Source: Flavobacterium psychrophilum (GTDB taxonomy: Bacteria; Bacteroidota; Bacteroidia; Flavobacteriales; Flavobacteriaceae). From it: a DNA stretch of 21,759 nt. How positions within the stretch are numbered: the first letter of the stretch is position 1; every line of letters begins with the position of its first letter. The stretch is from contig DZAU01000040.1 in assembly GCA_022729635.1 (NCBI GenBank), positions 1 through 21,759 on the forward strand. Reading direction: 5' to 3'. The notes beneath the pieces were generated by a model. It made no database searches and was not told where the DNA came from. It was given only the letters and a program-made list of their open reading frames with translations. A program made the translations under genes and the position numbers. Shown piece after piece: positions 2,847 through 19,818 of this stretch.

Positions 2847-4880
2847 TTATGCTGAAATTAATTTTTTCAGGCTGTTATATACTGCCAATTCCACATCGGC
2901 ATGTTTTTTTGAATTGCATTGTTCTAATAAATCATTTAGTACTGCTGGATTTACATCTTGTTTTTTGTCAATGATTAGTAACAGTTGTTGTGACAAATCG
3001 CTTAAACTTTTGGACAATGGCAATAGGGGTTGAATAAGCGGAGCATTAGAACTTAATTTAATCAGTTTTGCATTGGTATTTATCCATTTTTTTAAAAAAT
3101 CAGTTACCAAAATCTGATTTTCTAAGTTTTTATTATCTAGATAGCGAGATACTGCCGCATCAAAATCTAATGCGTCAACAGCATCTGGTGTACAAGCATC
3201 AGCAAACAATGTCAATGGCGAAAAAGTTTGATATTCGGTGCCACCGCTGTTTCTTGAATATATTTTTAGAGGTTCACAAATGTTAGATAAATCCTCTAAA
3301 GCACTGTTTTTTTGATTGTTGCTAATATGTCGCAACAGGACATCTTTATTTCTGAGATGCGTGATTCCTAGTTCTTCTAATTGGAACGAAATTGTATTCA
3401 TTCTTTTGCGCAAACTGCTTAAATCTGTGATGGTTTCGTTTGACCATAATCTTTCGGCGATGGCGGCTGTTCTTGGCCAAATTCTGGAGTCAATTGTTGA
3501 TGGCGTCACTAGTTCGCTCCACATTGTTGCTTCACCACCCAAAATTCGAGCTTTTTCTTCGTTGGAAAGAGTTGTGTTTTTTGGCATTGGATCATTCAAA
3601 TAATAACTTTCTACTCCAAGCATTAAATCTATATAAAACCCATTGGACAAAACAGTTTTGTAGCCATTTTTTACTGCATTTGTTAATGATTGTCCTGCCG
3701 GAATGCCTTCGTTTGTTCCTTTCCAGGAATGAATTATGGCTTCTTTTGACATGTTTTTTGTCATTATTTCTTCCCAACCCATTAATGTTTTGTTATGTTT
3801 TTTTAACATTGGAACTAATTGCATGGTGAAATACGTTTGCAATTCGTGATTAGTGCCGAGATTGTTTTTCTTTTTGAATTCTTGAATTTTAGGATTCGAA
3901 TCCCAATCTTTGCCTTCGTTTTCATCACCACCAATATGAAAATAATTTCCCGAAAACAGCGGGCAAACTTCATCAAAAATTTCACTCAACAGTTGATATG
4001 TTTTTGGATTTGAAGGATCTAATGTTGGCGTAAAAATCCCTGAATTTCTTTCGACAGAATAGGCGGTTTCATCAAAATTTAATTTGCTTCCCACTTCAGG
4101 ATAAGCAGTAAGTATTGCCGAAGCATGACCCGGAACGTCTATTTCCGGAACAACGATTATCCCTCTTTCATCAGCATATTTTACTATGTTTTTAATTTCT
4201 TCCTGAGTATAATAATCTCCATCCGAAGCCAATTGATGTAATTTTGGATGTTTTTTCATTTCTATTCTCCAGCCTTGATCGTCTGACAAATGCCAATGAA
4301 AAACATTCATTTTCATTGCTGCCATAGCATCGAGATTTCTTTTGACAACGTCAATCGGCTGAAAATGTCTGGCTGCGTCAATCATCAATCCTCTCCATTT
4401 GAACCTAGGAAAATCCGAAATCGTAGCCGTTGGAAAATAATAAGAATTACTGGTATTTTGTAGCAACTGTAATAGGGTTTCCAAGGCGTGAATTGCTCCT
4501 AAATCAGAAGTTGCATTTATCGTTATTTTGTCAGATTTAATCTCCAGTTGATAGCTTTCATCTTCGTTGATTCCTGTTTTTCCGTTTCGGATACAATTTA
4601 TTTGTAATGGTGCTGAAGGAAATTCATTGATTTTGGTCACAAAACCTTGTTCAAAAAACAGTCCCGTTCTTCCGTCTAATCTTCGCAAAAACTGGGTAGC
4701 TCTGGCAAAAATTCGAGGGTTTGGATTTCCGGTAATATTCACTTTAAAATTTTTGTTTAAAACAAAATTCCCATCTGTTAAATCGATGTTTTGTGGCCAA
4801 GGCATTAGATTTAACGCATCAGTTTTTACTTGAGCGTTGGCTAAAATGCTTGATAGTAATAAGATGAAAATGTATTTCAT
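2847..4880 (-). CDS. beta-N-acetylhexosaminidase, glycoside hydrolase family 20
   Basis: A 677-residue exported enzyme that removes terminal beta-GlcNAc or GalNAc from oligosaccharides. A type I signal peptide ends at ANA-Q (about residue 16). The N-terminal GH20b-like domain covers about 20-155 and the TIM barrel about 160-510. The catalytic Asp-Glu pair of substrate-assisted GH20 catalysis is in HIGGDE (Asp319, Glu320). Other family landmarks are RGLMIDAARHF (163-173), HWHLSDDQGWR (196-205), VPEIDVPGH (244-252), and the pocket tryptophans in GWEE (Trp369) and ATMWSE (Trp454). About 160 residues after the barrel form a helical-looking extension not recognised here. The gene starts 23 nt after the nagB-fusion stop, so the two are one transcription unit. 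Since it is exported, probably to the periplasm, its product GlcNAc needs an inner-membrane transporter encoded elsewhere. Confidence 0.95.
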   Translation of the reverse strand: MKYIFILLLSSILANAQVKTDALNLMPWPQNIDLTDGNFVLNKNFKVNITGNPNPRIFARATQFLRRLDGRTGLFFEQGFVTKINEFPSAPLQINCIRNGKTGINEDESYQLEIKSDKITINATSDLGAIHALETLLQLLQNTSNSYYFPTATISDFPRFKWRGLMIDAARHFQPIDVVKRNLDAMAAMKMNVFHWHLSDDQGWRIEMKKHPKLHQLASDGDYYTQEEIKNIVKYADERGIIVVPEIDVPGHASAILTAYPEVGSKLNFDETAYSVERNSGIFTPTLDPSNPKTYQLLSEIFDEVCPLFSGNYFHIGGDENEGKDWDSNPKIQEFKKKNNLGTNHELQTYFTMQLVPMLKKHNKTLMGWEEIMTKNMSKEAIIHSWKGTNEGIPAGQSLTNAVKNGYKTVLSNGFYIDLMLGVESYYLNDPMPKNTTLSNEEKARILGGEATMWSELVTPSTIDSRIWPRTAAIAERLWSNETITDLSSLRKRMNTISFQLEELGITHLRNKDVLLRHISNNQKNSALEDLSNICEPLKIYSRNSGGTEYQTFSPLTLFADACTPDAVDALDFDAAVSRYLDNKNLENQILVTDFLKKWINTNAKLIKLSSNAPLIQPLLPLSKSLSDLSQQLLLIIDKKQDVNPAVLNDLLEQCNSKKHADVELAVYNSLKKLISA

Positions 4881-4903: not shown

Positions 4904-6841
4904 TTAATAATCAAAGCGTTTAAAAGCTTCAATGGCTTCATATTCGGCAAGACCTAAATCATCATACAGTTTTGCCGTATTTTTGTTCCTGTCTTCGGCT
5001 CTTACCCAGAATTCTCTGGAGTCATTTCCTTGAAACATTACCCTGTCTTTTTGCGATTGATGGTATAAAATAGCGTGTCTTTTAATCGTTACTTCGTCCG
5101 GGCTCAAAGGAACTGCCATATCAATTTCGTGCAAATCCCATTCGTGCCAAGCACCTCGGTACAACCACAACCAGCAATCGTCCATATACGTATTTGGTTT
5201 TAGCTTTTTCAAAGCAGCAAAAATCGCATTTAAGCATACTTCGTGGGTTCCGTGTGGATCCGCAAGATCACCAGCAGCAAAAATTTGATGCGGTTTTATT
5301 TTGGCAATAATGTCAGCTACAATATTGATGTCTTCTTCGCCAATGGGTTTTTTCTTTACTTGTCCCGTTTCATAAAAAGGCAAGTCTAAGAAATGGGTGT
5401 TTTCATCTTTCAATCCAATGTATCTCACGGCAGCGAATGATTCTCGTCGCCGGATAAGACCTTTTAATTTTCGAACTTCGATGGAATCAACTTCATTTTC
5501 TGATTTATTATTAAGGAAATCTATTGCAGATTGAAAATTAATTTTACTATTGTCGTTACCAACAAAATCATTGCATACTTCGGCAAACTTGAGTGCTTCA
5601 TCATCTGTAACAGCAATGTTTCCAGAGGTTTGATAGACTACGTGAACATCGTGACCTTGTTTGATTAATTTAGAAAAAGTACCTCCCATTGAAATCACGT
5701 CATCATCTGGATGCGGACTAAAAAGGATTACTCTTTTCTTAGCAGGATTGGCTCTTTCGGGTCTATGACTGTCATCGGTGTTGGGTTTTCCTCCTGGCCA
5801 ACCTGTAATAGTATGTTGCAAAACGTTGAACATATTGATGTTTAAATCATAAGCGGAACCTCCCGAAGCCAGAAGATCTGACATTCCGTTGTTGTTGTAA
5901 TCCCTGTCGGTGAGTTTAAGTATGGCTTGATTTGTTTTTTGGCAAAGCCAAACAATGGCTTTACTTTTTAATTCGGGTGTCCAGATACATTCGCCAACCA
6001 ACCAAGGGGTTTTATATCGTGTCAATTCTGAAGCGGCAGACTGGTCTAAAACGAAGGTAGCATTGGGGTGATTTTGTAAAAATGTGGCAGGAACTTCAGA
6101 GCTAATTTCACCTTGAATGGTTCTTTTTATGATGTCGGCTTTGTTTTGACCCCAAGCCATTAAAACGATTCTTTTCGAACGAAGAATTGTCGAAACCCCC
6201 ATTGTAATTGCTCTTTTGGGAACACTGTCAATTCCGTTAAAATCAAAGGAAGCATCAACTCTGGTGATATGATCCAAAGTTATAATTCGGGTTCCTGAAT
6301 TGATGTGAGAACCAGGTTCATTAAACCCAACGTGACCAGTTCGACCAATTCCCAATAATTGAAAATCAAGCCCGCCAGCATTTTTAATGTTCATTTCATA
6401 ATCGATGCAATATTGATTCAAATCTTCAAAAGCCACCGTTCCATCAGGAATATGGATGTTTTCTGGATTGATGTCGATGTGATTGAAAAGATGCTGATGC
6501 ATAAAATGAAAATAGCTTTGATTGTTTTCGTTCGTCATTGGATAATATTCATCCAAATTGAAAGTGATTACATTGCTAAAACTAAGTCCTTTTTCTTTGT
6601 GCATTCGAACCAATTCTTCATACACTTTTATTGGTGATGAACCTGTTGCCAAACCCAAAACACAAGGATTGTTTTTTGCTTGTTTTAAAATTATTAAATT
6701 GGCTATTTCACGAGCAACAATAATTGATGCTTCGGCTGAATTTTTGAAAATTTCGTTGTGGATTTTCTCAAATCGGGTTTCTTCGAATTTGCCGGGACTT
6801 TTATAGCTAATATCAGGTTTGATTTCTAGAACGGTTTTCAT
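4904..6841 (-). CDS. nagB: glucosamine-6-phosphate deaminase fused to a PIG-L/LmbE deacetylase domain
   Basis: A 645-residue two-domain cytoplasmic protein, more than twice the length of ordinary NagB (about 260 residues). Residues about 25-290 are the NagB domain, which converts glucosamine-6-phosphate to fructose-6-phosphate and ammonia. It shows the sugar-phosphate loop LATGSSP (64-70), the catalytic FNLDEYY (Asp97), and GIGRTGHVGFNEP (His170, Glu175). At the position of E. coli Asp141 it has Thr168. Residues about 365-600 are a PIG-L/LmbE domain with both zinc motifs intact: HPDDD (His377, Asp380) and PHGTHE (His530, His533). PIG-L enzymes remove N-acetyl groups from GlcNAc-type sugars, so the protein may combine deacetylation and deamination (inference). 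This fusion is known from other Bacteroidota. It is separated from susD by a strong terminator hairpin and followed 23 nt later by the GH20 gene. Confidence 0.92.
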   Translation of the reverse strand: MKTVLEIKPDISYKSPGKFEETRFEKIHNEIFKNSAEASIIVAREIANLIILKQAKNNPCVLGLATGSSPIKVYEELVRMHKEKGLSFSNVITFNLDEYYPMTNENNQSYFHFMHQHLFNHIDINPENIHIPDGTVAFEDLNQYCIDYEMNIKNAGGLDFQLLGIGRTGHVGFNEPGSHINSGTRIITLDHITRVDASFDFNGIDSVPKRAITMGVSTILRSKRIVLMAWGQNKADIIKRTIQGEISSEVPATFLQNHPNATFVLDQSAASELTRYKTPWLVGECIWTPELKSKAIVWLCQKTNQAILKLTDRDYNNNGMSDLLASGGSAYDLNINMFNVLQHTITGWPGGKPNTDDSHRPERANPAKKRVILFSPHPDDDVISMGGTFSKLIKQGHDVHVVYQTSGNIAVTDDEALKFAEVCNDFVGNDNSKINFQSAIDFLNNKSENEVDSIEVRKLKGLIRRRESFAAVRYIGLKDENTHFLDLPFYETGQVKKKPIGEEDINIVADIIAKIKPHQIFAAGDLADPHGTHEVCLNAIFAALKKLKPNTYMDDCWLWLYRGAWHEWDLHEIDMAVPLSPDEVTIKRHAILYHQSQKDRVMFQGNDSREFWVRAEDRNKNTAKLYDDLGLAEYEAIEAFKRFDY

Positions 6842-6943: not shown

Positions 6944-8524
6944 TTAGAAATTAGGTCCGGTAGTATCCCACCAAAGTCTAGTTCCACCATTGTCTGGCCC
7001 TCCAAGTTTAGCAACTCCTGTGGCAACACCTCCAGGGTTTCCGTCTTTTTCAGACTGAACAAAATTTACTCTTCGAACTCCTAAAGAAGAACTTATTAAT
7101 CCTCCGCTAGTATTTTTAAGTGCAGGCAATAACTTTGGATAACCAGTTCTTCTATATTCAGACCATGCTTCTTGTCCTTCTGGGAAACCGGCAATCCATT
7201 TTTGGGTAATGATTTTTTGAAGTTTTACTTCATTAGAAGCTGCACCATCCCAAGCTACAGTAACATTGTTTAATGCGGCTGAATTATTTACAGGAAAATT
7301 AGGATCTACATACGCTTTTGCTATTTTTACATTATCTGCAATATAAGTAGTAGCTCCAGCAACGGCGTGCTGATCAAACGAATTGCTGATTCCAGACTCA
7401 TATAAACTTTGTGCTGTTCCGCCCATGTTCCAACCTCTCAATGCACCTTCGGCTCTTAAGAAATAGACTTCGGCAGCAGTCATGAAAACAATATCTTTCG
7501 AACGAACTATTTTTCCGATAGCTGAAAAGTCAGAATGATCTGATTTTGCGGCAATTTCTATTCCTGTACGAACGCCTTTGTATTCTCCTGAAAATTGTTT
7601 TGAAGTGTCAAAAAACACAGCTAATCTTGGGTCGTTATAACCGCCCATTATTGATTCCATATCGGCAGACATTCTGACGTCTTCCCAAGCGCCACTAATA
7701 GTTGCAATAGGATTTGTATAAGTAGGAGAAACTACTTTGAATAAATCTGCATTTGTGGTTATAACTCCTAATGGATGGCTAATTGCTTTTTCAGCCTGAG
7801 TTTTTGCCAATGCCGGATCAATTTTAACGATGCGCATTGCCAATCTTAGTCGCAAGGAGTTTGCAAATTTTACCCATTTTGAATAATCACCGTTGTATGA
7901 CGAAATATCAGTTCCAATAAAAGTTGAAACTTCATTTGCATTGACTCTGGTTGTTAAATCAGCAACAGCTAAATCTAATTCCTGAAACATTAAATTATAT
8001 ACTTCTTCTTGAGAATCATATTCAATTACAGGATCTGTTGTCCCAAATTTTGAATACACACAAGGGCCATAAGTGTCAGTAATTCTATGCATAGCTTCTA
8101 CTTTTAGAATCAAAGACAAAGCATAAAACTGATTGTATTTTCCTTTTGCTCTTTGTTCAATTTTTAATGCATTTGCCATTACATCACCGTAACCTGCACC
8201 CCAGGCAAAACCATTCCAACCATCAACTAAGTCATAAGTTGTATTGTTAGTTCCTCCTCTAAATGGAGTTGGTGTTGACATATATCCTGACCAAATATCA
8301 CCTTGTAATCCTTGTTGTACTTGGTATCTCCATTCTGGATTAAGAACCAAAACATTATTGAACATTGGTGTAAATAAAGATTTTATATTATTAAAATCTT
8401 GCTCTAAAAGCACATCTGTCGCTCCGTAAGGATTGGTATTGATGCTCTCGAAATCTCCTGTACAACTTACTGCTGCGAATAAGGAGATACATATAGCGGA
8501 TGTTTTTATTTTATTTAATATCAT
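6944..8524 (-). CDS. SusD/RagB-family outer-membrane lipoprotein
   Basis: A 526-residue surface lipoprotein. The signal peptide ends in the lipobox AAVSC (Cys21), the lipidation site. The sequence resembles the SusD-like_2 branch: an early ESINTNPYG segment, helical TPR-like regions, and a late QKWIAGFPEGQEAWSEYRRTGYP block that is characteristic of SusD proteins. SusD proteins bind oligosaccharide at the cell surface and act as the lid of the SusC channel. The gene starts 10 nt after the susC stop, the standard arrangement. The hexosaminidase and NagB downstream suggest a GlcNAc-containing ligand (inference). The protein is full length. Confidence 0.95.
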   Translation of the reverse strand: MILNKIKTSAICISLFAAVSCTGDFESINTNPYGATDVLLEQDFNNIKSLFTPMFNNVLVLNPEWRYQVQQGLQGDIWSGYMSTPTPFRGGTNNTTYDLVDGWNGFAWGAGYGDVMANALKIEQRAKGKYNQFYALSLILKVEAMHRITDTYGPCVYSKFGTTDPVIEYDSQEEVYNLMFQELDLAVADLTTRVNANEVSTFIGTDISSYNGDYSKWVKFANSLRLRLAMRIVKIDPALAKTQAEKAISHPLGVITTNADLFKVVSPTYTNPIATISGAWEDVRMSADMESIMGGYNDPRLAVFFDTSKQFSGEYKGVRTGIEIAAKSDHSDFSAIGKIVRSKDIVFMTAAEVYFLRAEGALRGWNMGGTAQSLYESGISNSFDQHAVAGATTYIADNVKIAKAYVDPNFPVNNSAALNNVTVAWDGAASNEVKLQKIITQKWIAGFPEGQEAWSEYRRTGYPKLLPALKNTSGGLISSSLGVRRVNFVQSEKDGNPGGVATGVAKLGGPDNGGTRLWWDTTGPNF

Positions 8525-8534
8525 GATTTTTTTA

Positions 8535-11500
8535 TTAGAAAGTTACATTTAAATTAAGACCGATACTTTTGGTTGACGGCATTCCATAAACATCAACACC
8601 TTGCAAACCTTCTCCTGTGCTCAATGAAATATTTGGATCAAAAGGGGCATCTTTATAAATAAAGAATAAGTTTCTGGCAATTACTGATAAACTAGCCGAT
8701 TGTAAGAAAGGTAGCTTTTTAGTATCAAAATTATATCCTACAGAAAGTTCTCTTAAACTTACATTTGTGGCATCGTAAACATATTCGCCAGTTGCGCCAG
8801 CTCTACCACCAACTTGTTTGTAATAACTATCGGCTGGATATTTTCCTGAGTATGCAGTTCCATCAGGATATACAGCATTTATGGCTACACCACCTGCATT
8901 TCTCGCATCTCCTGTTGTTTTCGAAACTCCAAATTCATCATTTGTAGCTTCAGTTAAACTCATAACTTCACCACCAACACGGGCATCAATAAGCACATTA
9001 GCAAAGAAACTACCATATTTGAATGTGTTTCCAAAACCTAACATATAGTCTGGATTTGCATTTCCTACTACTTCAAATCCTGTTTTTTGGATTGTACCAT
9101 CAGCATTCAACATCACTCTGCCTTGAGCATCTCTTTTGATATTTACTCCTTCGATTTGTCCAAAAGCTTGTCCTTCAATCAATGAATATCTGTAGTTGTT
9201 TACTCCTGGGTCAGTTAAGATAACTCTTCCTCCCAGTTCAGCAGGAATTTCGCTAACTGTATTTTTGTTATGCGAATAGTTTATAGTTGCATCCCAAGTA
9301 AATTTATCAGTTTTGATAATTTTGCCTGTTAATACAATTTCAAGTCCTTGGTTTTTGATACTTGCTGCATTGAAGCCATAGTTTAAGTAACCATAAGGAT
9401 TTGTTGCCGGCGCGGGAACCTGAATGTATTGATTTTTGGTTTCTGAATTGTAGTATGAAATTTCAAATCCAAGTTTGTTGTCAAACATTTTCCACTCAGT
9501 TCCAATTTCAAATTCTGATTTTAATTCTGGTTTTAATGATTCACCTGGTCTTGGTCCAACGGTTGGAGGAATGATTTGACCACCAACGATTGTTGAGGTT
9601 GGTGAAGTTACAAAAGAAGAAATGTCGTTACCCACTTGCGCATAAGAAGCACGCACTTTACCATAATTAATCCAATCTGGCATTTTGGTCATCTCACTAA
9701 TAAGTCCCGTTACACCAACTGATGGGTAAAAGAAAGATAGTTTGTCTGTGTTTACAAGTGTAGAAGACCAGTCGTTTCTTCCTGTTATATCGAGATATAA
9801 ATAGTTTTTATACCCTAAAGTGGCTGCTGCAAAAACAGATTGAACTTCTTTTTGTGAGCCTAAACTTTGAAAATTTCCAGCATTGTTAACAAAATTTCCT
9901 AAAGTAAACCAGTTTGCATACACTAAACCTGAACTTATTCCTGAATCTAAAGTAGTAGCATCATTACCCATAGATTTAGTAAAACTTGCTCCAATATTAG
10001 CAGTTAAACTTAAATCTTCATTAATAGTAGTATTAATATTAGCTAGAAAGTCGCCATAATTTTGAGTGCTTAAACTGTTAATATTAATGTATCTACCGTT
10101 TACGTGTGATAATGTACCTTGTGTAGAAGCATAGATTTTTTTATCGAAACTGCTTTCAATACGGTTGTAGTTATATCTTGAAACAAGACTTAACCAATTA
10201 TTTACTTTATAATCTAATGCAAAAGATCCAGTTAAAAAGTGGTTTTTATCTGTAGAAGCATTTCTATTGATAGCCCAATACGGGTTTTGCATAATATCTC
10301 TATTAGTCATCCAGTTTTGAACCATCATATTTCTAACTGGATCAAAAATTTCAAAATTGGAGGCATAATAGTCAAAATCATTCCCTCTTGGCATTAGATA
10401 AACACCAGTCAAGGCATTGAAATAGTAACCACTTACCGGTTTATTGTTGATAGATTGTGAAACATAATTTGCATTTGCAGAAACGGTTAATTTATCATCT
10501 AAAAACTTTCCGGATTGACGAATTCCAAAATTATTTTTATTTAAATCATTTCCTTCAATTATTCCTGAAGAAGTGGTATTTGCATAAGATAAGCTGGTTG
10601 AAGATTTTTCTGTTCCGGTTGAAAATGACAAAGAAGTAATTTGAGTATTTCCTGTTTTGAAAAAATCTTCTACGTGATCATTAGAAGCACCTTTTGCTCC
10701 CCAAGTTTCATCACCTCCGGCAACTGCAACATATTCGTTTTGGAATTCTGGCAAAAATGCAGCCGATTCAAAAGTAGTTGTTGAAGTAACTTTTAGGTTA
10801 GAAACTCCTTCTTTTGATTTTTTTGAAGTAAGCAAGATTACTCCATTTGCACCTTGGCTACCATATAAAGCAGCAGCAGAAGCACCTTTAAGAACGGTCA
10901 TTCCTTCGTAATCATCAGGATTTAAAAGAGCCACAGCATCTCCGCCGTCTCTGTTTCCTCCATTTATATCACCAAAAGTAAGATTGGGTTGCCCAGAAGA
11001 AATATTAAATAATGGAACACCATCGATTACATATAATGGTTGATTATTCGTTACAGAAGAATTTCCTCTTATTACGACTTTAGTAGAACCTCCAGTTCCA
11101 CCGGCACTTTTTGTAACGGCAACACCTGCAATTTTACCTGCAATAGTATTGATAACATTCGCATCTTTCACTCTGGTAAGATCTTCGCCTTTTAATTCTT
11201 GTGCAGCATAAGTCAAAGATTTTCTAGTTTTCTTGATGCCAAGTGAAGTAACCACAACTTCAGTAAGAGTAGTTGAAGAGGCTTCTTTCAATTGTACTTT
11301 AATAGTGGTTTCATCACCCACTACTACATTTTGGGTCTCTAATCCCACGTAAGAGATTACTAAGGTTTTTCCTTTTTCTACTGGAATCGAAAAATTACCA
11401 TCAATATCGGTGGTAGTTCCTTTTGTTTCACCTTGCACATTAATGTTTGCCATTGGTAACGGTAAACCATTTGCATCGCTCACATTACCTTTGACGGTTG

Positions 11501-11564
11501 CTACTTGAGCAAGGGAAACTTGCGTAGTAAAAACAATCATAAAGATTAAAATAATTTGTTTCAT
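8535..11564 (-). CDS. SusC/RagA-family TonB-dependent outer-membrane transporter
   Basis: A 1009-residue protein that imports oligosaccharide across the outer membrane using TonB energy. The signal peptide ends at SLAQ (about residue 20). A carboxypeptidase-regulatory-like domain follows (about 22-95), then the TonB box TEVVVTSLG (101-109), the plug domain with the SusC hallmark LYVIDGVPL (177-185), and the beta-barrel, ending in the terminal Phe of LNLNVTF. It is the first gene of the amino-sugar locus and lies divergent from the LytS/LytTR pair. Its upstream region carries a LytTR-like direct repeat and a poor -33 box, consistent with activator-dependent expression. The N-terminal domain arrangement is that of an ordinary SusC, with no anti-sigma signalling extension, which fits control by a two-component system instead. 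Confidence 0.97.
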
Positions 11565-11591: not shown

Positions 11592-11621
11592 TAAATTTAT
11601 CGGTATGAGTATTCTAAAAAA
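11592..11621 (-). promoter_or_regulatory. candidate susC promoter
   Basis: The minus-strand box TAAATTTA (11592-11599) matches the Bacteroidota -7 consensus TAnnTTTG at 7 of 8 positions. The -33 position, about 19 nt upstream (around 11619-11621), holds only T's instead of TTG. A start about 20 nt before the ATG is implied. The weak -33 fits a promoter needing an activator. Confidence 0.45.
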
Positions 11622-11631
11622 AATAAATTAT

Positions 11632-11661
11632 ACCAACAGCTAAAAAATTTAAACCAACGAC
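11632..11661 (-). promoter_or_regulatory. LytTR-type direct-repeat binding site upstream of susC
   Basis: On the minus strand two 9-mers, gtcGTTGGT (11661-11653) and gctGTTGGT (11640-11632), lie in direct orientation separated by exactly 12 bp. LytTR-family regulators (AgrA, VirR, ComE) bind pairs of imperfect 9-bp repeats with a GTT core and a 12-bp spacer, so they contact one DNA face two turns apart. The site ends about 10 bp upstream of the candidate -33 element, the expected place for an activator. The LytTR regulator encoded at 12878-13579 is the obvious candidate protein. Confidence 0.6.
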
Positions 11662-11687
11662 ATAATTTAATCAATAATGTGTATTTC

Positions 11688-11699
11688 GAAAACGTTTTC
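11688..11699. promoter_or_regulatory. CG-centred palindromic operator candidate
   Basis: GAAAACGTTTTC is a perfect 12-bp palindrome with a central CG, the form typical of LacI-family operators. It sits in the divergent control region, 124 nt upstream of susC and near the -33 region of a plus-strand -7-like box. No LacI-type gene is in the window. In AT-rich DNA an A-tract/T-tract palindrome can also arise by chance. Confidence 0.4.
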
Positions 11700-11838: not shown

Positions 11839-12888
11839 GTGAGTAAAGTAAAAGAAATGAAATTCGACATTAAACTTCAAAATCATTTTTGGTTTTGGGG
11901 CGTTTATTTTTTATTGAACTTTCTGCGTTGGGGAGCTTATTTTAATGATTATGAATATTCCTTTAAATCGAACCTAATAGAATTTACGCTTCATATTCCT
12001 TTAGTTTATTTTAATTTGTTCGTTCTTGTGCCTCGATATGTCTTGAACTCAAAGTATTACAAATATGCTTTCGGGCTGTTGTTGAGTTTAATGGCGGTTT
12101 ATTTATTGAAAACAGGAATGACGTATTTTATCATTTCAGAGAACATTTGGCCAGAAGCCAATAGAGAATACAAACCTTTCGAAATCAATCACATTGTGGC
12201 GGTTTGCATTGGCGAATTATACGTTTTGGCGATGGCTTCATCAGTTTATTTAACATTGACTTGGTTAAAAGAAAGAGATCGAAACAGAGCTTTGAGAGAA
12301 GAACAATTTAAAATCAAATTAAAATACCTGAAAAACCAAATTCAGCCGCACTTCTTTTTCAATACTTTGAATAATTTGTACGCTTTGTCACTTGAATCTT
12401 CAGACAAAGTTCCCGATGTGATTATAAAATTGTCAAAATTGATGGAATATGTTTTGTACGACATCGAAGGAACTAAATTTGTCCCCTTAATCAAAGAAAT
12501 TGACTATATCCAAAATTACATTGAAATTGAAAAACTCCGTTTTGAAAACGTGGAGGTTACCATAAATATAGAATCGAATATTGATGAAGTTAAAGTTCCA
12601 CCTTTATTGTTTATTTCGCTATTGGAAAACGCCTTTAAACACGGCGGTTATAACAACAACAGGCTTAAAATCAAGATAAATTGTAAAATCATTGATGACT
12701 TCTTACGCTTTGAAATCATAAATAATTTTGTACTTTCACAAAATATTAATACCCAAAAAGGCATTGGTTTAACCAATACCAAGAAGAGGCTGAAATTAAT
12801 TTTCAAAAACAATTATTCATTAGAACATCAAGTGAAATTCAACTATTACATCATCCGTCTGCAAATACCTATATATAATGAAGATTAA
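11839..12888 (+). CDS. LytS-type sensor histidine kinase (His_kinase family)
   Basis: A 349-residue inner-membrane kinase. About four transmembrane helices fill residues 15-145, with no recognisable periplasmic sensor domain, followed by a short coiled linker (145-163). The HisKA-like dimer region has LKNQIQPHFFFNTLNNL with the phospho-accepting His171. The ATPase part has the N box LLENAFKHGG (261-270) and the G box GIGLTNTKKRL (308-318). This layout defines the LytS/YehU-like His_kinase group that pairs with LytTR regulators. The start used is GTG at 11839; an in-frame ATG at 11857 (MKFDIKLQNHF) is an equally good or better start. The 3' end overlaps the regulator gene by 11 nt, so the pair is co-translated. 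It lies divergent from susC, suggesting it senses amino-sugar import state (inference). Confidence 0.93.
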   Translation: MSKVKEMKFDIKLQNHFWFWGVYFLLNFLRWGAYFNDYEYSFKSNLIEFTLHIPLVYFNLFVLVPRYVLNSKYYKYAFGLLLSLMAVYLLKTGMTYFIISENIWPEANREYKPFEINHIVAVCIGELYVLAMASSVYLTLTWLKERDRNRALREEQFKIKLKYLKNQIQPHFFFNTLNNLYALSLESSDKVPDVIIKLSKLMEYVLYDIEGTKFVPLIKEIDYIQNYIEIEKLRFENVEVTINIESNIDEVKVPPLLFISLLENAFKHGGYNNNRLKIKINCKIIDDFLRFEIINNFVLSQNINTQKGIGLTNTKKRLKLIFKNNYSLEHQVKFNYYIIRLQIPIYNED

Positions 12889-13579
12889 ATGCGTTTTGGT
12901 TGACGATGAACCTTTGGCTATAAAAGTCTTGCTAAATTATTTTGCTAATTTTCCTGATTTTGAAGTTGTTGGAACTTTTAATAACTCATTGGAAGCATTA
13001 GATTTTATCAATAATAATGCTGTCGATACGGTATTTTTGGACATAAATATGCCAATGATGACGGGTTTTGAGTTGATTAGTTTGATGGAGAATAAACCTA
13101 AAGTAATTATTACTACTGCCTTCAGAGAATTTGCCGCCGAAAGTTACGACCTCGAAGTTTTAGATTATTTGGTAAAACCCATTCCGTTACCGCGATTTAT
13201 AAAGTGCATCAATAAAATTACAGCCGAATTCAGTCTAAAAAACAATATCAAAATCGAACCAGTTCGAGTAGATTCACATATTTTTATCAAAGTCGATAAA
13301 AAAATGGTAAAAATAAATATTGACGAAATCCTCTTTATCGAAGGAATGAAAGAATATATCAAAGTGGTCACCGTCGATAAAACCTATATTACCCATAAAT
13401 CCTTGACTTCATTGTCCGAAGAATTGCCCTTAGATTGTTTCATCCGAATCCATAAATCCTACACCATAGCTATTGATAAAGTGAAATTTATCGAAGGAAA
13501 CAGAATTCAAATACTTTCCTTTACCATCCCAATTGGTCGAAATTACAGCAAAGATGTAAAGAGCAGAATTTTAGAATAA
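12878..13579 (+). CDS. LytTR-family response regulator
   Basis: A 233-residue regulator. The receiver domain (1-120) has the acidic pair Asp9/Asp10, phospho-acceptor Asp55 in FLDINMP, Thr80 and the conserved Lys100 in LVKPIPLP. The LytTR DNA-binding domain (about 132-233) shows FIEGMKEYIKV, ITHKSLTSL, FIRIHKSYTI and the terminal IPIGRNYS motif. It is phosphorylated by the kinase whose gene overlaps its start, and presumably binds the 9-12-9 repeat upstream of susC (inference from site geometry). The only candidate LytTR-type site seen in the window is that one. Full length, no anomalies. Confidence 0.95.
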   Translation: MKIKCVLVDDEPLAIKVLLNYFANFPDFEVVGTFNNSLEALDFINNNAVDTVFLDINMPMMTGFELISLMENKPKVIITTAFREFAAESYDLEVLDYLVKPIPLPRFIKCINKITAEFSLKNNIKIEPVRVDSHIFIKVDKKMVKINIDEILFIEGMKEYIKVVTVDKTYITHKSLTSLSEELPLDCFIRIHKSYTIAIDKVKFIEGNRIQILSFTIPIGRNYSKDVKSRILE

Positions 13580-14209: not shown

Positions 14210-17200
14210 TTAAATATTATTATTTTCAAGAATATGTTTAAAATGTTTCTCGTTTTTATAAACTTGTGCTAATAAGCTTGGCAAAATCACCAACAACAAA
14301 GGCATTGCAATTAGAAATCCACCAATTACGGCAATGGCTAAAGGTTGGTGCAATTCTGAACCAGTTCCTATTCCAATTGCTAATGGTAAAAGTGCTATAA
14401 TTGCCCCTAAAGCCGTCATTAATTTGGGTCGTAATCGTGTTGAAATAGAATAAATTATAGATTGATTTACATTTCTTGTCAGTTTGAAAGTTTCTCTAAA
14501 TTGAAGGAATGTAAAAATCGCATTTTCGGCAATGATGCCCACAATCATAATAATTCCTGTATAACTTCCAACGTTTAGTGGTGTTCTTGTCATAAAAAGT
14601 AAAATATAACTTCCTGAAATTCCTAAAACTGAAATTAAAAGTATGACCGATGCAATTCTGAAATCTCGAAAAAGAAATAAAATTACACCAAAAACCAATA
14701 ATGAAGAAGCAATTAAAATCAGTAGTAATTCCCTAAAAGATTGTTGTTGGTCTTTATAAGCTCCAGCATATTCAATATAATAGCCGCTTGGCAAATGAAC
14801 ATCTTGGGTAACTTTGGTTTGAATTTCTTTCATTACGCTTCCCAAATCTCGGTTGTCCAATCGTCCAGTTACAACACTCATCATTTGTAGATTTTCACGT
14901 TCAATTTCGGCAACGCCTTTTTGAACTGAAATAGTAACCAAACTCGAAATAGGAATGGATTGTCCGTTGGGCAAAAATATTTTGAGTTGTTTAATGTCTT
15001 CCAAACTTCGTTTCTGACCGTTGGCATAAATCAATCTGATAGGTGTTAGCTTTTCATTTTCTAATAAACTGCCTACTACATTACCTTCCAAAGCAGTTTG
15101 CATTTGAAATTGTAAATCGGTTGGTGTAATCCCATATTGTGCCAATTGAGAGTAATTAGGTTGAATATTAATTGCTGGTCCAGCCAAAACAATGCCATCA
15201 AAAACATCGGCAGTTCCTTTTACTTTTTCAACAATGGCACTAACTTCTTTGGCTATTTTTTGTAATTCTACTTGATTATTTCCATAGACTTTTACTTCAA
15301 TAGGAGAAACAGAACTCATTAAATCACCCAACATATCACCAATAACTTGACCAAAATCAATTCGCAAAGCGGGCTGTGTAGCTTCTACCTTGGCACGAAT
15401 TTCGTCAATTACATCGTTACTAGTTTTACTTCTTTCTTTTTTTAATTGTATTAAATAATCTCCACGATTGGGCTCGGTTATAAAAAAACCCATTTGAGTT
15501 CCAGTTCTTCTACTATATGCTTCAACTTCGGGAATTTTTATAATTATTTTTTCGACTTCGTTCAACATTCTATCCGTTTCTTCAAGTGAAGTTCCTGGTG
15601 GACTTTCATAATCTAAAATAATGCTTCCTTCGTCCATTTCAGGTAAAAAACCAGTTTCTAAATTGGGTAAAATAATAAAAATAGACAGCACTAAAACAAC
15701 GCAAAAGGCAATACTAATAATAGGTTTCCCAATAAAATAACCAACCCAATTTTGGGTTTTTACTTCGTGAATTTCATTTATTTCTTGTTTTTCAGAGTTA
15801 GTCCTTTCTTCTTTAGATAGCAACAAATAGACCACTGGAAGCAACAACCAAGTAACAAAAAACGAACAAACCAAAGTAATAATCATTGTATCTGTAAGCA
15901 CTTTAAAATAAGAACCCGCAACGCCACTCATCAAAATAAAAGGAATGAAAATCACAATTGTACTGATGGAAGAACCAACCATTGCAGGAAATAAATAATG
16001 AATTGCTTTTTGCAAAAGCGTAACTGTTGGCTCGTCAGGATGTTCTTCGTGTGTGCGATGAATTTGTTCTACAACTACAATCGCATCATCAATAATTAAT
16101 CCCAATGCCGCTGCAATGGCACCCAAAGTCATAATATTGAAAGTATTTCCTGTGAGGTACAAAACGATCAACGTCAATCCTAATGTTACTGGAATGATGA
16201 TTAATATTGTAGCACTGGCTTTCGCCGATTTCAAAAATAAAATAGCAACAATTATGGCTAATAATAATCCGATTAATAAACTATCTGTAACACTTTTTAC
16301 TGCATCATTTACAAAATTTGCCTGCTCATAAAATGGTTTTATAGTAATATCTTTTGGAAGTATTTTTTTTAAATCCTGCAACTTTACATTCATTGCATCA
16401 GAAAGCGAAATCAAGTTAGAATTGGGTTGTTTAATAACTGCGATTAGAATACTTTCTTTACCGTTAGCATTAACTTTTATGTATTCTTTTGCTTCTTTAA
16501 TTTCGACAGTAGCAATATCTTTTAGGGTTACAATTCCTTTTCCGTTATTGCTAATTACTAGGTTTTCGAGTTCATCTTTTTTATCAACTTGTGCATCGGT
16601 AATTGTTAAATATAAATACCGATAATCCGCTAAATAACCATTAGATTTGATAAAATTGGTTTGGCTTAAAACTTGCGAAATAGCATTTGGAGTAATTCCA
16701 AGGGCAGTCATTTTATTAAAATCTAACGCCAACCAATATTCTTTTTCTTTTCCTCCAATAATCCGAATTTCGGAAACGCCATCAATTTGAGAAAGAAATG
16801 GCTTGATGATATAATTGGCTATTTTTTTGAGTTCAATGGCAGATTTCCCTTCGCAATCAATCGCATAACCAATAACTGGAAGAATAGAAGGGTTCATTTT
16901 CTCGACCGTAATTTGAGTATCTGGCGGAAGATTATTTTTAATTTGATTAATTTGCTCTTCGATGCGAGTTTTACTCAAATCAATATCGGATTTCCAATCC
17001 ATAAAAGCCGAAATTTCACAACTTCCACGACTGGTTGTACTGCGGACAGTTTTTAAGTCTTGTACTTTTTTAATGGCATTTTCCAACGGCTTGGTTACCG
17101 TAATCATCATTTTGTCGATGGGTTGTTGTCCTGCATCGGCAATGATTTTTATTTTTGGAAACGTAATTTCGGGAAACAAACTCGTTTGCATTTTTGAATA

Positions 17201-17278
17201 CGCAAAAAATCCTCCCAAAATAATTAGGAAAATAACGGCACTTAAACCATTTTTATGTTTTACAAAAAAGTTGTTCAT
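14210..17278 (-). CDS. RND-family efflux pump permease
   Basis: A 1022-residue inner-membrane, proton-driven export pump of the AcrB/MexB type. It has one N-terminal helix (about 11-30), a first periplasmic loop (about 31-330), six helices (about 333-545 including the loop to helix 7), a second periplasmic loop (about 570-860) and five final helices. The proton-relay Asp pair is present in LGLIIDDAIVVVE (Asp397, Asp398), the signature of drug-type (HAE1) pumps rather than of the heavy-metal CzcA type. The start codon overlaps the adaptor gene stop by 1 nt. It is the last gene of the operon. Substrate is not readable from sequence; the PAP2 phosphatase and EamA genes upstream hint at envelope lipids or hydrophobic compounds. 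Confidence 0.93.
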   Translation of the reverse strand: MNNFFVKHKNGLSAVIFLIILGGFFAYSKMQTSLFPEITFPKIKIIADAGQQPIDKMMITVTKPLENAIKKVQDLKTVRSTTSRGSCEISAFMDWKSDIDLSKTRIEEQINQIKNNLPPDTQITVEKMNPSILPVIGYAIDCEGKSAIELKKIANYIIKPFLSQIDGVSEIRIIGGKEKEYWLALDFNKMTALGITPNAISQVLSQTNFIKSNGYLADYRYLYLTITDAQVDKKDELENLVISNNGKGIVTLKDIATVEIKEAKEYIKVNANGKESILIAVIKQPNSNLISLSDAMNVKLQDLKKILPKDITIKPFYEQANFVNDAVKSVTDSLLIGLLLAIIVAILFLKSAKASATILIIIPVTLGLTLIVLYLTGNTFNIMTLGAIAAALGLIIDDAIVVVEQIHRTHEEHPDEPTVTLLQKAIHYLFPAMVGSSISTIVIFIPFILMSGVAGSYFKVLTDTMIITLVCSFFVTWLLLPVVYLLLSKEERTNSEKQEINEIHEVKTQNWVGYFIGKPIISIAFCVVLVLSIFIILPNLETGFLPEMDEGSIILDYESPPGTSLEETDRMLNEVEKIIIKIPEVEAYSRRTGTQMGFFITEPNRGDYLIQLKKERSKTSNDVIDEIRAKVEATQPALRIDFGQVIGDMLGDLMSSVSPIEVKVYGNNQVELQKIAKEVSAIVEKVKGTADVFDGIVLAGPAINIQPNYSQLAQYGITPTDLQFQMQTALEGNVVGSLLENEKLTPIRLIYANGQKRSLEDIKQLKIFLPNGQSIPISSLVTISVQKGVAEIERENLQMMSVVTGRLDNRDLGSVMKEIQTKVTQDVHLPSGYYIEYAGAYKDQQQSFRELLLILIASSLLVFGVILFLFRDFRIASVILLISVLGISGSYILLFMTRTPLNVGSYTGIIMIVGIIAENAIFTFLQFRETFKLTRNVNQSIIYSISTRLRPKLMTALGAIIALLPLAIGIGTGSELHQPLAIAVIGGFLIAMPLLLVILPSLLAQVYKNEKHFKHILENNNI

Positions 17279-18198
17279 TACAATTCCTTTTTAATCACTT
17301 TTACTTTAATGGTATCTGCTACTCCATAATTTCCAGTAAGCAAAATTTTATCTTCACGAGTTAAAACGGGTGATAAGATCTCAATTCTATCTTCGGTTTG
17401 AATTCCTTTTTGTATTGGAATTTTAACTGCTGTATTGGAGTTTATCATTTTCATAATCCAAAAGTCAGTTTCGGTTTCATCACTCAAAACGGCTGATTTT
17501 GGCAATGAAACAGTCTTGGAATTAGAAGATTTATAAATCCGAACCTTTACAATTAAATTCTCTGGAATATCTTGTTTGCCGTTTATTTTCAAAACCACAT
17601 TTTGCGTTTGTGAAGTGGCGTCAACAGTTGGTGAAAATTTTTGAACTCTTGCAATTCTCGATGTACCATCAGGTAAAGTAGCAGTCAATTGTTGGCCAAT
17701 TGAAACGTAACTTTTCAATTCATAAGGCAAGCTCAAAATAATTGCAAAACTTTCAGCATCGTTAATAGTAACTAAAACGTCACCATCTTGAACATAATCA
17801 CCTTGTTGTACATTGACCATAGTTACAATTCCACTTGTATTAGAACGTACCCTTATGGCACTGCCAAAATTTAAAGTTGGATCTATTTTATTGATGGTGT
17901 TTCCTAAGACTTTGGCTTCTCTGGTTTTAATAGAAAACAACTCCTTTCCGTTAGTTACAAAATCATTAGTTGCTACATTAACCGAATTCAAATAACCTGT
18001 TGCATTAGATTTGACAGTATTTTTAACCAGATAAAATGCTGTTGCATTAAGATCAATATAACTTGCAATTCCTGAGGTGTCAATTGTAGTTAAAGTTACA
18101 GGAACACTTGCATCAATAGGTTTTTCGGTAACTGTAGAATCTTTACAAGAAATAAAAAAGAGAGTGATTATAATAAAAATATAAATTGATTTTTTCAT
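17278..18198 (-). CDS. RND efflux periplasmic adaptor lipoprotein (HlyD-like)
   Basis: A 306-residue membrane-fusion protein linking the RND pump to the TolC-like channel. The lipoprotein signal is FFISC with Cys18 as the lipidation site. Two lipoyl half-motifs are visible: VKSNATGYLNSVNVATNDFVTNGKELFSI (about 62-90 in several strands) and VRSNTSGIVTMVNVQQGDYVQDGDVLVTI (about 117-145). They lie only about 30 residues apart, so the usual long alpha-hairpin is nearly absent. Beta-barrel and membrane-proximal regions follow (about 150-300). It is shorter than typical adaptors (about 350-400 residues) for that reason. It overlaps the pump gene by 1 nt and follows the small membrane protein by 14 nt. 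Confidence 0.88.
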   Translation of the reverse strand: MKKSIYIFIIITLFFISCKDSTVTEKPIDASVPVTLTTIDTSGIASYIDLNATAFYLVKNTVKSNATGYLNSVNVATNDFVTNGKELFSIKTREAKVLGNTINKIDPTLNFGSAIRVRSNTSGIVTMVNVQQGDYVQDGDVLVTINDAESFAIILSLPYELKSYVSIGQQLTATLPDGTSRIARVQKFSPTVDATSQTQNVVLKINGKQDIPENLIVKVRIYKSSNSKTVSLPKSAVLSDETETDFWIMKMINSNTAVKIPIQKGIQTEDRIEILSPVLTREDKILLTGNYGVADTIKVKVIKKEL

Positions 18199-18212
18199 TG
18201 ATTTATTTTTAT

Positions 18213-18527
18213 TTAAGATACTAATTTAACAGGCCAAAACATAATTAAAAAAAACAATACTATTCCTAGAATACCAAGCAAAGCAATTAAAAAAAAGTAA
18301 TTAGCTATTTTTTCAATTCTCATTTCTTTTTTTTCATTCATTGTTTTTATTGATACAAAAGATAAAACAGAAGAAATTGTTAATAATAAAGCAATTATTG
18401 ATGTAAATTCATCAACTAAACTATTTTCAGATTTATTGCTCATATGCAAAGAGATTAATATAAATAAACAAAACCCAAGTAAATTTGAAGAAGTGCCTAA
18501 AATATGTTGGGATGTATTGTTTGCCAT
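18213..18527 (-). CDS. small membrane protein of the RND operon
   Basis: A 104-residue protein with three predicted membrane segments: about 14-28, 40-60 and 76-98. A short charged loop KTMNEKKEMRIEKIAN joins the last two. There is no signal peptide or known motif, and I do not recognise a named family. It sits between the TolC-like and adaptor genes, 37 nt after one and 14 nt before the other, so it is translated with the efflux system. It might be an accessory subunit of the pump, comparable in position but not in sequence with small RND-associated proteins. Function unknown. Confidence 0.8.
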   Translation of the reverse strand: MANNTSQHILGTSSNLLGFCLFILISLHMSNKSENSLVDEFTSIIALLLTISSVLSFVSIKTMNEKKEMRIEKIANYFFLIALLGILGIVLFFLIMFWPVKLVS

Positions 18528-18564
18528 TTTTTTTTAATTTTTTAATATTTTTTTATTAGCTTAT

Positions 18565-19818
18565 TTAATCATTAGAACTCCAATAATTAATTTCGTTTAT
18601 AAGTTGGAGTTTGTTTATTTTATTTTGCGAAATGCTATTGTTGATAGTTATTACATTTCCGATTGCAATAACAAAATCAGTAATTTGAGCGTCGCCAGAC
18701 AATAATAATTTTTTATCCGCTTCGATAAGAGCATCGGCAATTTGAAGTTGCGATTGCAGTTGTTTTTCGGTTTCTATAGTTTGTTTCAATTTCTGGTTGA
18801 GCATCAATAATTGCTGGGCATATTGCTTGTTGAAATTCTTTTTGTATGCCAAATTGGTAGCCAGTGCCGTTTGGTTTTTTTGATGTTGTAACAATTTTTG
18901 ATTACCATCATAAATAGGAATTGACAATCCTAAGCCAACACTAACTCCAATGTTTTTATACCCTTGATAAGTAAAACTCGATAAATATCCTGCATCAGCG
19001 AGTAATGATAAAGAGGGTTTGTAGTTGTTGTCGATTAACTTATTTTGATTTTTTATTTTTAAGCTATCTACTTCAAATTGTTTTAGAAAAACAATTTTAT
19101 CGTTATTTCGAATATTCTTCAAAACAATATCTGGATTTTTTAATTTAACGAAAGTCGTATCTGTTTCTCCTGATAAATAATTGAGTAAGCTTAAATCATT
19201 TTGATATTGTTGTTTGAGCAATAAAACTTGTAATTCTTGTTGTTTGACAGTCGAAATAAAGAGTAAATAATCGGTTTGTTTGTATATTGAATTTTGAGTT
19301 AACTTTTTCAAAACAACAGCTCCATTTTTTAAAAGGCTTATCATTTTTTGATTGTAATCCATTTGTTCTAAACTTCCTGATGCAGTTATGTATTGAGAAA
19401 CTATGGCTTTATTCAAATCTTTTAAGGCAATAGTTTTATTCAAAAGCAATCCATCTTTCATTAATTTGAATGTTTCAGCTTGCGAATTGACGATGCTTTT
19501 TCTAATAATTTTTTGATTTACACCTATCAAACCCGAAACCGTTTGCCCATTGGTTATAGCAGTATCATATCCATAACCATTTATAGTTGGAGCATAATTA
19601 GCATTAAGGTTTACTGCAATTTGGGGCTTATAATTGGCTCGATTAATCAAACTATCTAAAGCATTTGATTTAATTTGATTGGACAAATCTTTCAATAAGG
19701 GTGAATTGATTTGTGCCTTTTCTTTATAAAATTGTAAGTCTTTTTCTTGCGAAAAAGAAGACAAACTACACAAAAAAAGTAAAACGAAAAAAGTGCTTTT
19801 CATTATTTTTAAATCCAT
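18565..19818 (-). CDS. TolC-family outer-membrane efflux protein
   Basis: A 417-residue outer-membrane channel protein. The signal peptide is best read from the second methionine (MKSTFFVLLFLCSLSSFSQ, start near 19803), with cleavage before EKDLQ. The first ATG at 19816-19818 lies 1 nt after the EamA stop and would add five residues. The protein shows the typical coiled helical content (INSPLLKDLSNQIKSN, QLQIADALIEADKKLL) and a repeat-like GYLSSFTYQGYKNIGVSVGLGLSIPIYDG strand region that marks the beta-barrel in OEP proteins. It completes the RND tripartite system with the adaptor and pump further down the same operon. Confidence 0.88.
   Translation of the reverse strand: MDLKIMKSTFFVLLFLCSLSSFSQEKDLQFYKEKAQINSPLLKDLSNQIKSNALDSLINRANYKPQIAVNLNANYAPTINGYGYDTAITNGQTVSGLIGVNQKIIRKSIVNSQAETFKLMKDGLLLNKTIALKDLNKAIVSQYITASGSLEQMDYNQKMISLLKNGAVVLKKLTQNSIYKQTDYLLFISTVKQQELQVLLLKQQYQNDLSLLNYLSGETDTTFVKLKNPDIVLKNIRNNDKIVFLKQFEVDSLKIKNQNKLIDNNYKPSLSLLADAGYLSSFTYQGYKNIGVSVGLGLSIPIYDGNQKLLQHQKNQTALATNLAYKKNFNKQYAQQLLMLNQKLKQTIETEKQLQSQLQIADALIEADKKLLLSGDAQITDFVIAIGNVITINNSISQNKINKLQLINEINYWSSND

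Follow-up and report, generated by a model that had tools for sequence, protein, structure and literature searches.

A rigidly spaced direct repeat before a flavobacterial susC operon as the probable binding site of the LytTR response regulator CusR

Introduction

Through which DNA element does a two-component system next to a SusCD locus reach the transporter genes? The question is raised by a contig of Flavobacterium psychrophilum (DZAU01000040.1, assembly GCA_022729635.1), of which a stretch of 21,759 nucleotides was analysed as a whole (hereafter, the window) and in which a susC gene is divergent from the genes of a LytS-type kinase and a LytTR response regulator, with a short direct repeat between them. 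In F. johnsoniae, deletion of the orthologous cusS-cusR pair leads to the loss of both growth on chitin and ChiA, and both are brought back by plasmid-borne cusS-cusR; CusS/CusR is the only regulator in the chitin locus of that species, and the pair was predicted by the authors to be the trigger of locus transcription (Larsbrink 2016, PMC5127042, cited here and below from the part of the text available). The preliminary description of the window had presented two-component control of a SusCD locus as a surprise, a claim that has to be trimmed, since the genetic proof dates from 2016 (PMC5127042). The available text of that paper gives no binding site for the regulator, and open-licence papers, as far as their text was accessible, brought up none in which a LytTR site had been mapped at a SusCD locus.

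Genes of the window

The genes on which the argument depends are the following:

2847..4880, minus strand: GH20 hexosaminidase
4904..6841, minus strand: nagB-like glucosamine-6-phosphate deaminase fused to a PIG-L domain
6944..8524, minus strand: susD
8535..11564, minus strand: susC, SusC/RagA outer-membrane transporter, presumed first gene of the target operon
11839..12888, plus strand: cusS ortholog, LytS-type histidine kinase (PF06580)
12878..13579, plus strand: cusR ortholog, LytTR response regulator, 86% identical to the F. johnsoniae CI04 regulator

The susC, susD, NagB-PIG-L and GH20 genes share one direction, and cusS/cusR are divergent from susC. A Pfam search covered 15 window proteins (one without a match), the other eight listed open reading frames overlapping larger genes. 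The cusR product matches Response_reg (PF00072) and LytTR (PF04397), each at 1.2e-18 and above the curated cut-off, and is thus a LytTR response regulator, while its partner carries the His_kinase domain (PF06580), so that the repeat does adjoin a LytS/LytTR pair, as had been proposed. The kinase is 80% identical to that of CI04 and the pair keeps the same neighbours (susC, susD, nagB, gh20), which identifies the two proteins as CusS/CusR orthologs. When the regulator was compared with the PDB, only the receiver part was matched among the matches listed (60 of 86). CusS/CusR is the sole regulator among the 15 proteins searched; this set, to which the search was confined within the genome, contains neither a hybrid kinase with an AraC-type HTH, the mark of an HTCS-controlled PUL, nor a GH18 protein.

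Two further gene groups flank these. Beyond cusR, at 14210-19818 on the minus strand, an RND permease (PF00873), an HlyD-type adaptor and an outer-membrane efflux protein (PF02321) occupy the usual position of an MFS sugar transporter. Downstream of the GH20 gene, at 173-2366 on the minus strand, a glutaminase (PF04960) and a C45-like hydrolase (match below the cut-off) are possibly a separate nitrogen-salvage unit.

The repeat and its core promoter

The elements upstream of susC, all on the minus strand, are as follows, with the -7 box consensus as given in the available part of PMC6847099:

11592..11599, minus strand: -7 box TAAATTTA (consensus TAnnTTTG)
11616..11623, minus strand: T-run at the position expected for a -33 element, putatively in that role
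11627..11637, minus strand: proximal half-site GTTGGTATAAT, first G at about -50 from the predicted transcription start
11630-11638, minus strand: proximal 9-mer TGTTGGTAT, half of the 9-12-9 repeat
11648..11658, minus strand: distal half-site GTTGGTTTAAA, first G at about -71 from the predicted transcription start
11651-11659, minus strand: distal 9-mer CGTTGGTTT, half of the 9-12-9 repeat
11671..11678, minus strand: ATTATTGA element, 20 bp before the distal half-site
11687..11699, minus strand: conserved palindrome GAAAACGTTTTCG, upstream of the repeats

The layout reads GTTGGTTTAAA-N10-GTTGGTATAAT with a period of 21 bp, followed by the -7 box 59 nt on and then by susC; written as 9-mers it is CGTTGGTTT-N12-TGTTGGTAT, that is 9-12-9 with the same period, and the GTTGGT repeat first described upstream of susC is confirmed at these positions. 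It resembles the AgrA/ComE-type LytTR direct-repeat sites and has the GTT-N-purine core of the AgrA consensus in common with them. The half-sites are placed near -71 and -50 because the distance from the -7 box to the transcription start is usually 4-5 nt (PMC6847099).

Two direct 9-mers about 12 bp apart near the -35/-33 region are what defines a LytTR direct-repeat site (PMC6193735, available part), and in LRS operons such repeats show a strong bias to 10 bp upstream of -35 (PMC6193735). The 9-12-9 geometry claimed for the repeat is present, but it does not single out a LytTR protein: predicted HTCS sites are also direct repeats, with an average of 21 bp between sites (PMC3878776, available part), so that geometry alone is not diagnostic. 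The repeat might thus be a real activator site of a different regulator (an HTCS, a SusR-like protein or another LytTR protein encoded elsewhere), with CusSR acting upstream of it. For a SusR-like protein the spacing does not agree, the predicted SusR sites being 67 or 77 bp apart (PMC3878776).

The promoter had also been credited with a poor -33 box. A T-run does lie at that position, but it is uninformative, the -33 motif being indistinct across F. johnsoniae promoters generally (PMC6847099). A better sign is the final base of the -7 box, which is A in 75/75 aligned upstream regions, where G is otherwise nearly invariant; judged from the sequence, this suggests a weak core promoter.

The exact GTTGGT-N15-GTTGGT pattern has a single occurrence in the whole window. 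When the window was simulated 300 times with a first-order Markov model, an exact GTTGGT pair at period 21 never appeared; if every period between 12 and 40 was allowed, exact pairs had a mean of 0.04 per simulation (100 Markov simulations). With up to two mismatches the window has three matches against a shuffled mean of 1.24, a number reached by 14 of 100 shuffles and thus not unusual, so that only the exact match stands out.

Conservation in loci with a close cusR

Reference genomes were scanned with an alignment of the regulator, and the best 80 of 178 loci, together with the window, gave 81 sequences, in 76 of which the susC-cusS pair was scorable. The two-half-site pattern (16 fixed bases) lies divergent from cusS in 77/81 (69 exact, eight with one mismatch). 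Copies with three mismatches, again with the -7 box at 59 nt, are present in L001 and L002; as L006 and L019 fall at contig ends, 79 sequences are assessable. Loss of the repeats from orthologous loci was one outcome that the preliminary description had named as refuting its proposal; what was found is that the repeat is kept in 79/79 of the assessable sequences, all of which have a close cusR ortholog and come from the best 80 of 178 loci plus the window. A chance repeat in AT-rich DNA, for which the short words and the low GC content of the region could speak, is refuted by this conservation and by the absence of the pair from all 300 simulations, and its probability is negligible. Two contigs carry labels of other taxa, Lentimicrobium (L001) and a Polaribacter MAG (L004), whose regulators share 95% and 91% identity with the window regulator; both are likely mis-binned Flavobacterium.

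An ungapped alignment was made of 75 rows, that is the 76 scorable sequences less L065, whose best-scoring match lies elsewhere (it has a one-mismatch site). The GTT and GT of the distal GTTNGT are invariant in 75/75 rows; at the fourth base both half-sites vary freely (G27/T36/C12 and G20/T53/C2), and elsewhere the proximal GTTNGT core departs in four cells of the alignment. The -7 box starts exactly 59 nt past the first half-site G in 75/75 rows.

Spacing is equally fixed when half-sites are counted wherever they occur in the 81 sequences: same-strand pairs 8-60 bp apart have a period of 21 in 116/116 cases, and half-site-to-box distances peak at 59 nt (190 instances) and, for the proximal half-site, at 38 nt (123), all other offsets having a mean of 0.9 and a maximum of 23. 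What emerges is a searchable promoter module of two GTTNGTWTAA half-sites 21 bp apart with a -7 box 59 nt on, which predicts targets in other genomes.

The module before other genes

Besides the divergent promoter, the 81 sequences contain 51 further minus-strand matches with at most two mismatches. Among these, 43 precede a second susC (its reading frame is complete in 10 cases; in the other 33 it runs off the end of the locus but matches susC), seven precede nagB and one (L001) looks like chance. In L002, L009 and L064 neither susC nor susD was found in the locus, and there it is nagB that the site precedes. In 70 loci one strong half-site with a box at 59 nt lies 58-76 nt after cusR, and the gene behind this half-module is an MFS transporter (Pfam, L005 and L021 only); deletion of the F. 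johnsoniae counterpart prevents growth on chitin, GlcNAc and glucose (PMC5127042). An exact module with its box is also found unlinked to cusR, on a different contig or at least 2 Mb away, before the gene of a related small protein in G354, G358, G396, G408 and G409 (loci L137, L145, L182, L183 and L184); in L182 and L183 two more genes follow, which in L183 encode a TonB-dependent receptor and a DUF4249 protein (Pfam).

These positions bear on the direction in which the site works. It lies between divergent genes, and autoregulation is common among LytTR regulatory systems (PMC6193735), so that CusR could bind to autoregulate cusS/cusR, or to repress, the susC side being incidental. Yet both half-sites, like the -7 box, point towards susC and keep a fixed position relative to it, the same module recurs before the second susC, nagB and the unlinked operon with none facing cusS, and ChiA is lost, not gained, on cusSR deletion (PMC5127042), all of which makes repression or autoregulation very improbable.

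Specificity and co-occurrence with cusR

In the whole genome of F. johnsoniae CI04 there are two exact two-half-site matches, both in the chitin locus. One half-site with the box gives five matches, three of them in the chitin locus, against one for the reversed control; the two outside (C1, C11) are both within predicted reading frames, as are the one-mismatch matches L088 and L089. The two-mismatch pattern, tried for distant targets, gives no excess (19 against 22 in the control), and no such target is claimed.

That genome encodes 21 LytTR proteins, which provides candidates for a different regulator. However, within about 1.5 kb to either side of the remaining 20 LytTR genes neither the two-half-site pattern nor the half-site with box is present, and a generic AgrA-like pair ([ACT]GTTN[AG][TG] twice) occurs there twice at period 21 and 0-4 times at other periods; there is no excess at period 21, hence the repeat is not a general feature of LytTR genes. 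In L232, L243 and L255 a second LytS/LytTR-like pair is divergent from the gene of a 326-329 aa protein, with GTTSGTATAAA-type repeats of 20-bp period. This is possibly another LytTR regulon, and its near-identical half-sites are a point in favour of a different regulator.

Across genomes the site tracks the presence of cusR, which argues in the opposite direction. Among 150 Flavobacterium genomes, a close cusR (at least 75% identity) is full-length in 44 and a contig-edge fragment in G347, which has no exact match. An exact match is present in 40/44 genomes with the full-length gene, in each case at most 7 kb from cusR, versus 5/105 without it, and the reversed-pattern control matches in 3/150. 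The four cusR genomes that deviate have inexact copies (L177-L180) with two (G346), one (G361), three (G417) and one (G447) mismatches, each with the box at 59 nt, the three-mismatch copy (L179) being at the threshold where chance matches appear. In 299 genomes of the family, a close cusR is found in three, all with the motif (3/3), versus 11/296 others with an exact match and no box. Exact matches were examined for a box at 13 places, namely in the 11 cusR-free family genomes, at L123 (in a cusR-free Flavobacterium genome) and at L125, where a cusR-holding genome has another match; the cusR-free G303, G329, G349 and G434 of the genus sample are outside these 13. None of the 13 has a -7 box at 59 nt, and 10/13 lie in open frames of at least 146 codons. 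In a class-level sample the regulator occurs in 4/295 genomes at E up to 1e-70.

More distant genera

Twenty genomes of the family have a regulator 50-56% identical, of which 16 were examined, L286 being dropped since no kinase was found and L291, L292 and L294 for having no divergent gene. In 10/16 loci a half-site and a -7 box stand exactly 38 nt apart on the target strand, against 0 on the opposite strand, with a looser half-site core (GTYNRTHTA); the facing gene is susC-like in nine of these loci and nagB in one (L282). The arrangement is missing at 38 nt in L280, L281, L283, L288, L290 and L297. A loose half-site score had a mean of 14.56 at period 21 versus 13.4-14.5 elsewhere, a slight difference that was dropped as evidence. 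Because the half-site and box pattern was framed after some of the distant sequences and the loose scores had been seen, it is supporting rather than an independent test. Taken with the 79/79 conservation and the co-occurrence with cusR, the geometry in these 10 loci supports the two-component control of susC advanced in the preliminary description.

Further elements upstream of the repeat

At the place of the ATTATTGA element, the 75 aligned rows have ATTATTGA (37), AATGTTGA (28), ATTGTTGA (8) or ATTATAGA (2). The palindrome GAAAACGTTTTCG, which we take to be LacI-operator-like, is conserved in position without genome-wide enrichment: in four genomes it has 7, 6, 4 and 2 exact matches where its reversed control has 4, 6, 6 and 7, and it was rejected as a genome-wide operator. 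AACGTTTTCG, one mismatch being allowed, is near 73/77 divergent sites and 43/43 second-susC sites, and near 0/7 internal nagB sites and 0/25 two-mismatch sites on the cusR strand. In view of the two additional conserved elements, CusR may act with other factors.

The chiA gene of F. johnsoniae CI04

The two exact sites of CI04 precede the susC genes of two series, one extending as far as chiB (GH18) and the second as far as nagB and GH20. Behind GH20, with the same orientation, lies chiA (GH18, truncated where the contig ends); the module was not found in the spacer of about 480 bp before it, the best match having five mismatches. Between the two genes (L185, 1875-2352) a strong hairpin-like inverted repeat is seen by eye. 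Since ChiA is lost in the cusSR mutant and chiA has no module, its expression would come from read-through from the cusC-I site or by another, or indirect, CusR route. That a CusSR-dependent gene lacks its own module counts against the simplest reading of the repeat as a CusR site, lowers our confidence in it and favours a different regulator. With CusS/CusR as the sole regulator both among the 15 window proteins and in the F. johnsoniae locus (PMC5127042), and with the site following cusR across genomes, a different regulator is nonetheless unlikely.

Discussion

CusR, the LytTR response regulator encoded next to the repeat, very probably binds there; it is proposed as the binder because of adjacency, co-occurrence of the site with cusR and the published mutant. 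That the site is a functional-looking activator site of ordinary LytTR design, for a regulator already known genetically, is well supported; the direct binding of CusR, its dependence on phosphorylation, its role as an activator and not a repressor, the operon and the identity of the inducing sugar are what we infer from this. Phosphorylated CusR (the phosphorylation being presumed) would occupy the two half-sites as a pair of monomers, on the same side of the helix and two turns apart, directly upstream of a sigma-A core promoter that may be weakened at position -5, and would recruit RNA polymerase for transcription of susC-susD-nagB-GH20 when chitin-derived sugars are present.

The best reading, of moderate novelty, is that the repeat is the missing cis element of a known regulator. 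A likely DNA target is thereby supplied for a protein that chitin breakdown has been known to require since 2016, and it becomes possible to test directly whether a SusCD locus is under classical two-component control. A wider proposal is tentative, with rather less than an even chance of holding: a family-wide, rigidly spaced LytTR regulon for amino sugars, with composite susC promoters that involve a second regulator and, in some species, unlinked TonB-receptor/DUF4249 operons. If it holds, such a Flavobacteriaceae regulon would add a further way of controlling SusCD to the HTCS, SusR and ECF/anti-sigma systems, and the GAAAACGTTTTCG palindrome and ATTATTGA would bring in a second regulator, chitin-sugar and another signal being integrated at one promoter.

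Comparison with known systems

With the ChiUL of F. johnsoniae the window shares an orthologous regulator pair divergent from susC, and nagB and GH20 in the same gene series; it differs in having one SusCD pair and an efflux set instead of the MFS transporter. With LytTR direct-repeat sites (AgrA/ComE; LRS operons, PMC6193735) it shares 9-12-9 repeats just upstream of -35/-33, whereas its half-site is longer (GTTNGTWTAA), its -7 box, at 59 nt, is of the Bacteroidetes type and its target is nutrient uptake. As in the HTCS sites of Bacteroides PULs (PMC3878776), direct repeats of about 21 bp lie upstream of a PUL operon, but the regulator of the window is a separate LytS kinase and LytTR regulator and not a hybrid AraC-type protein.
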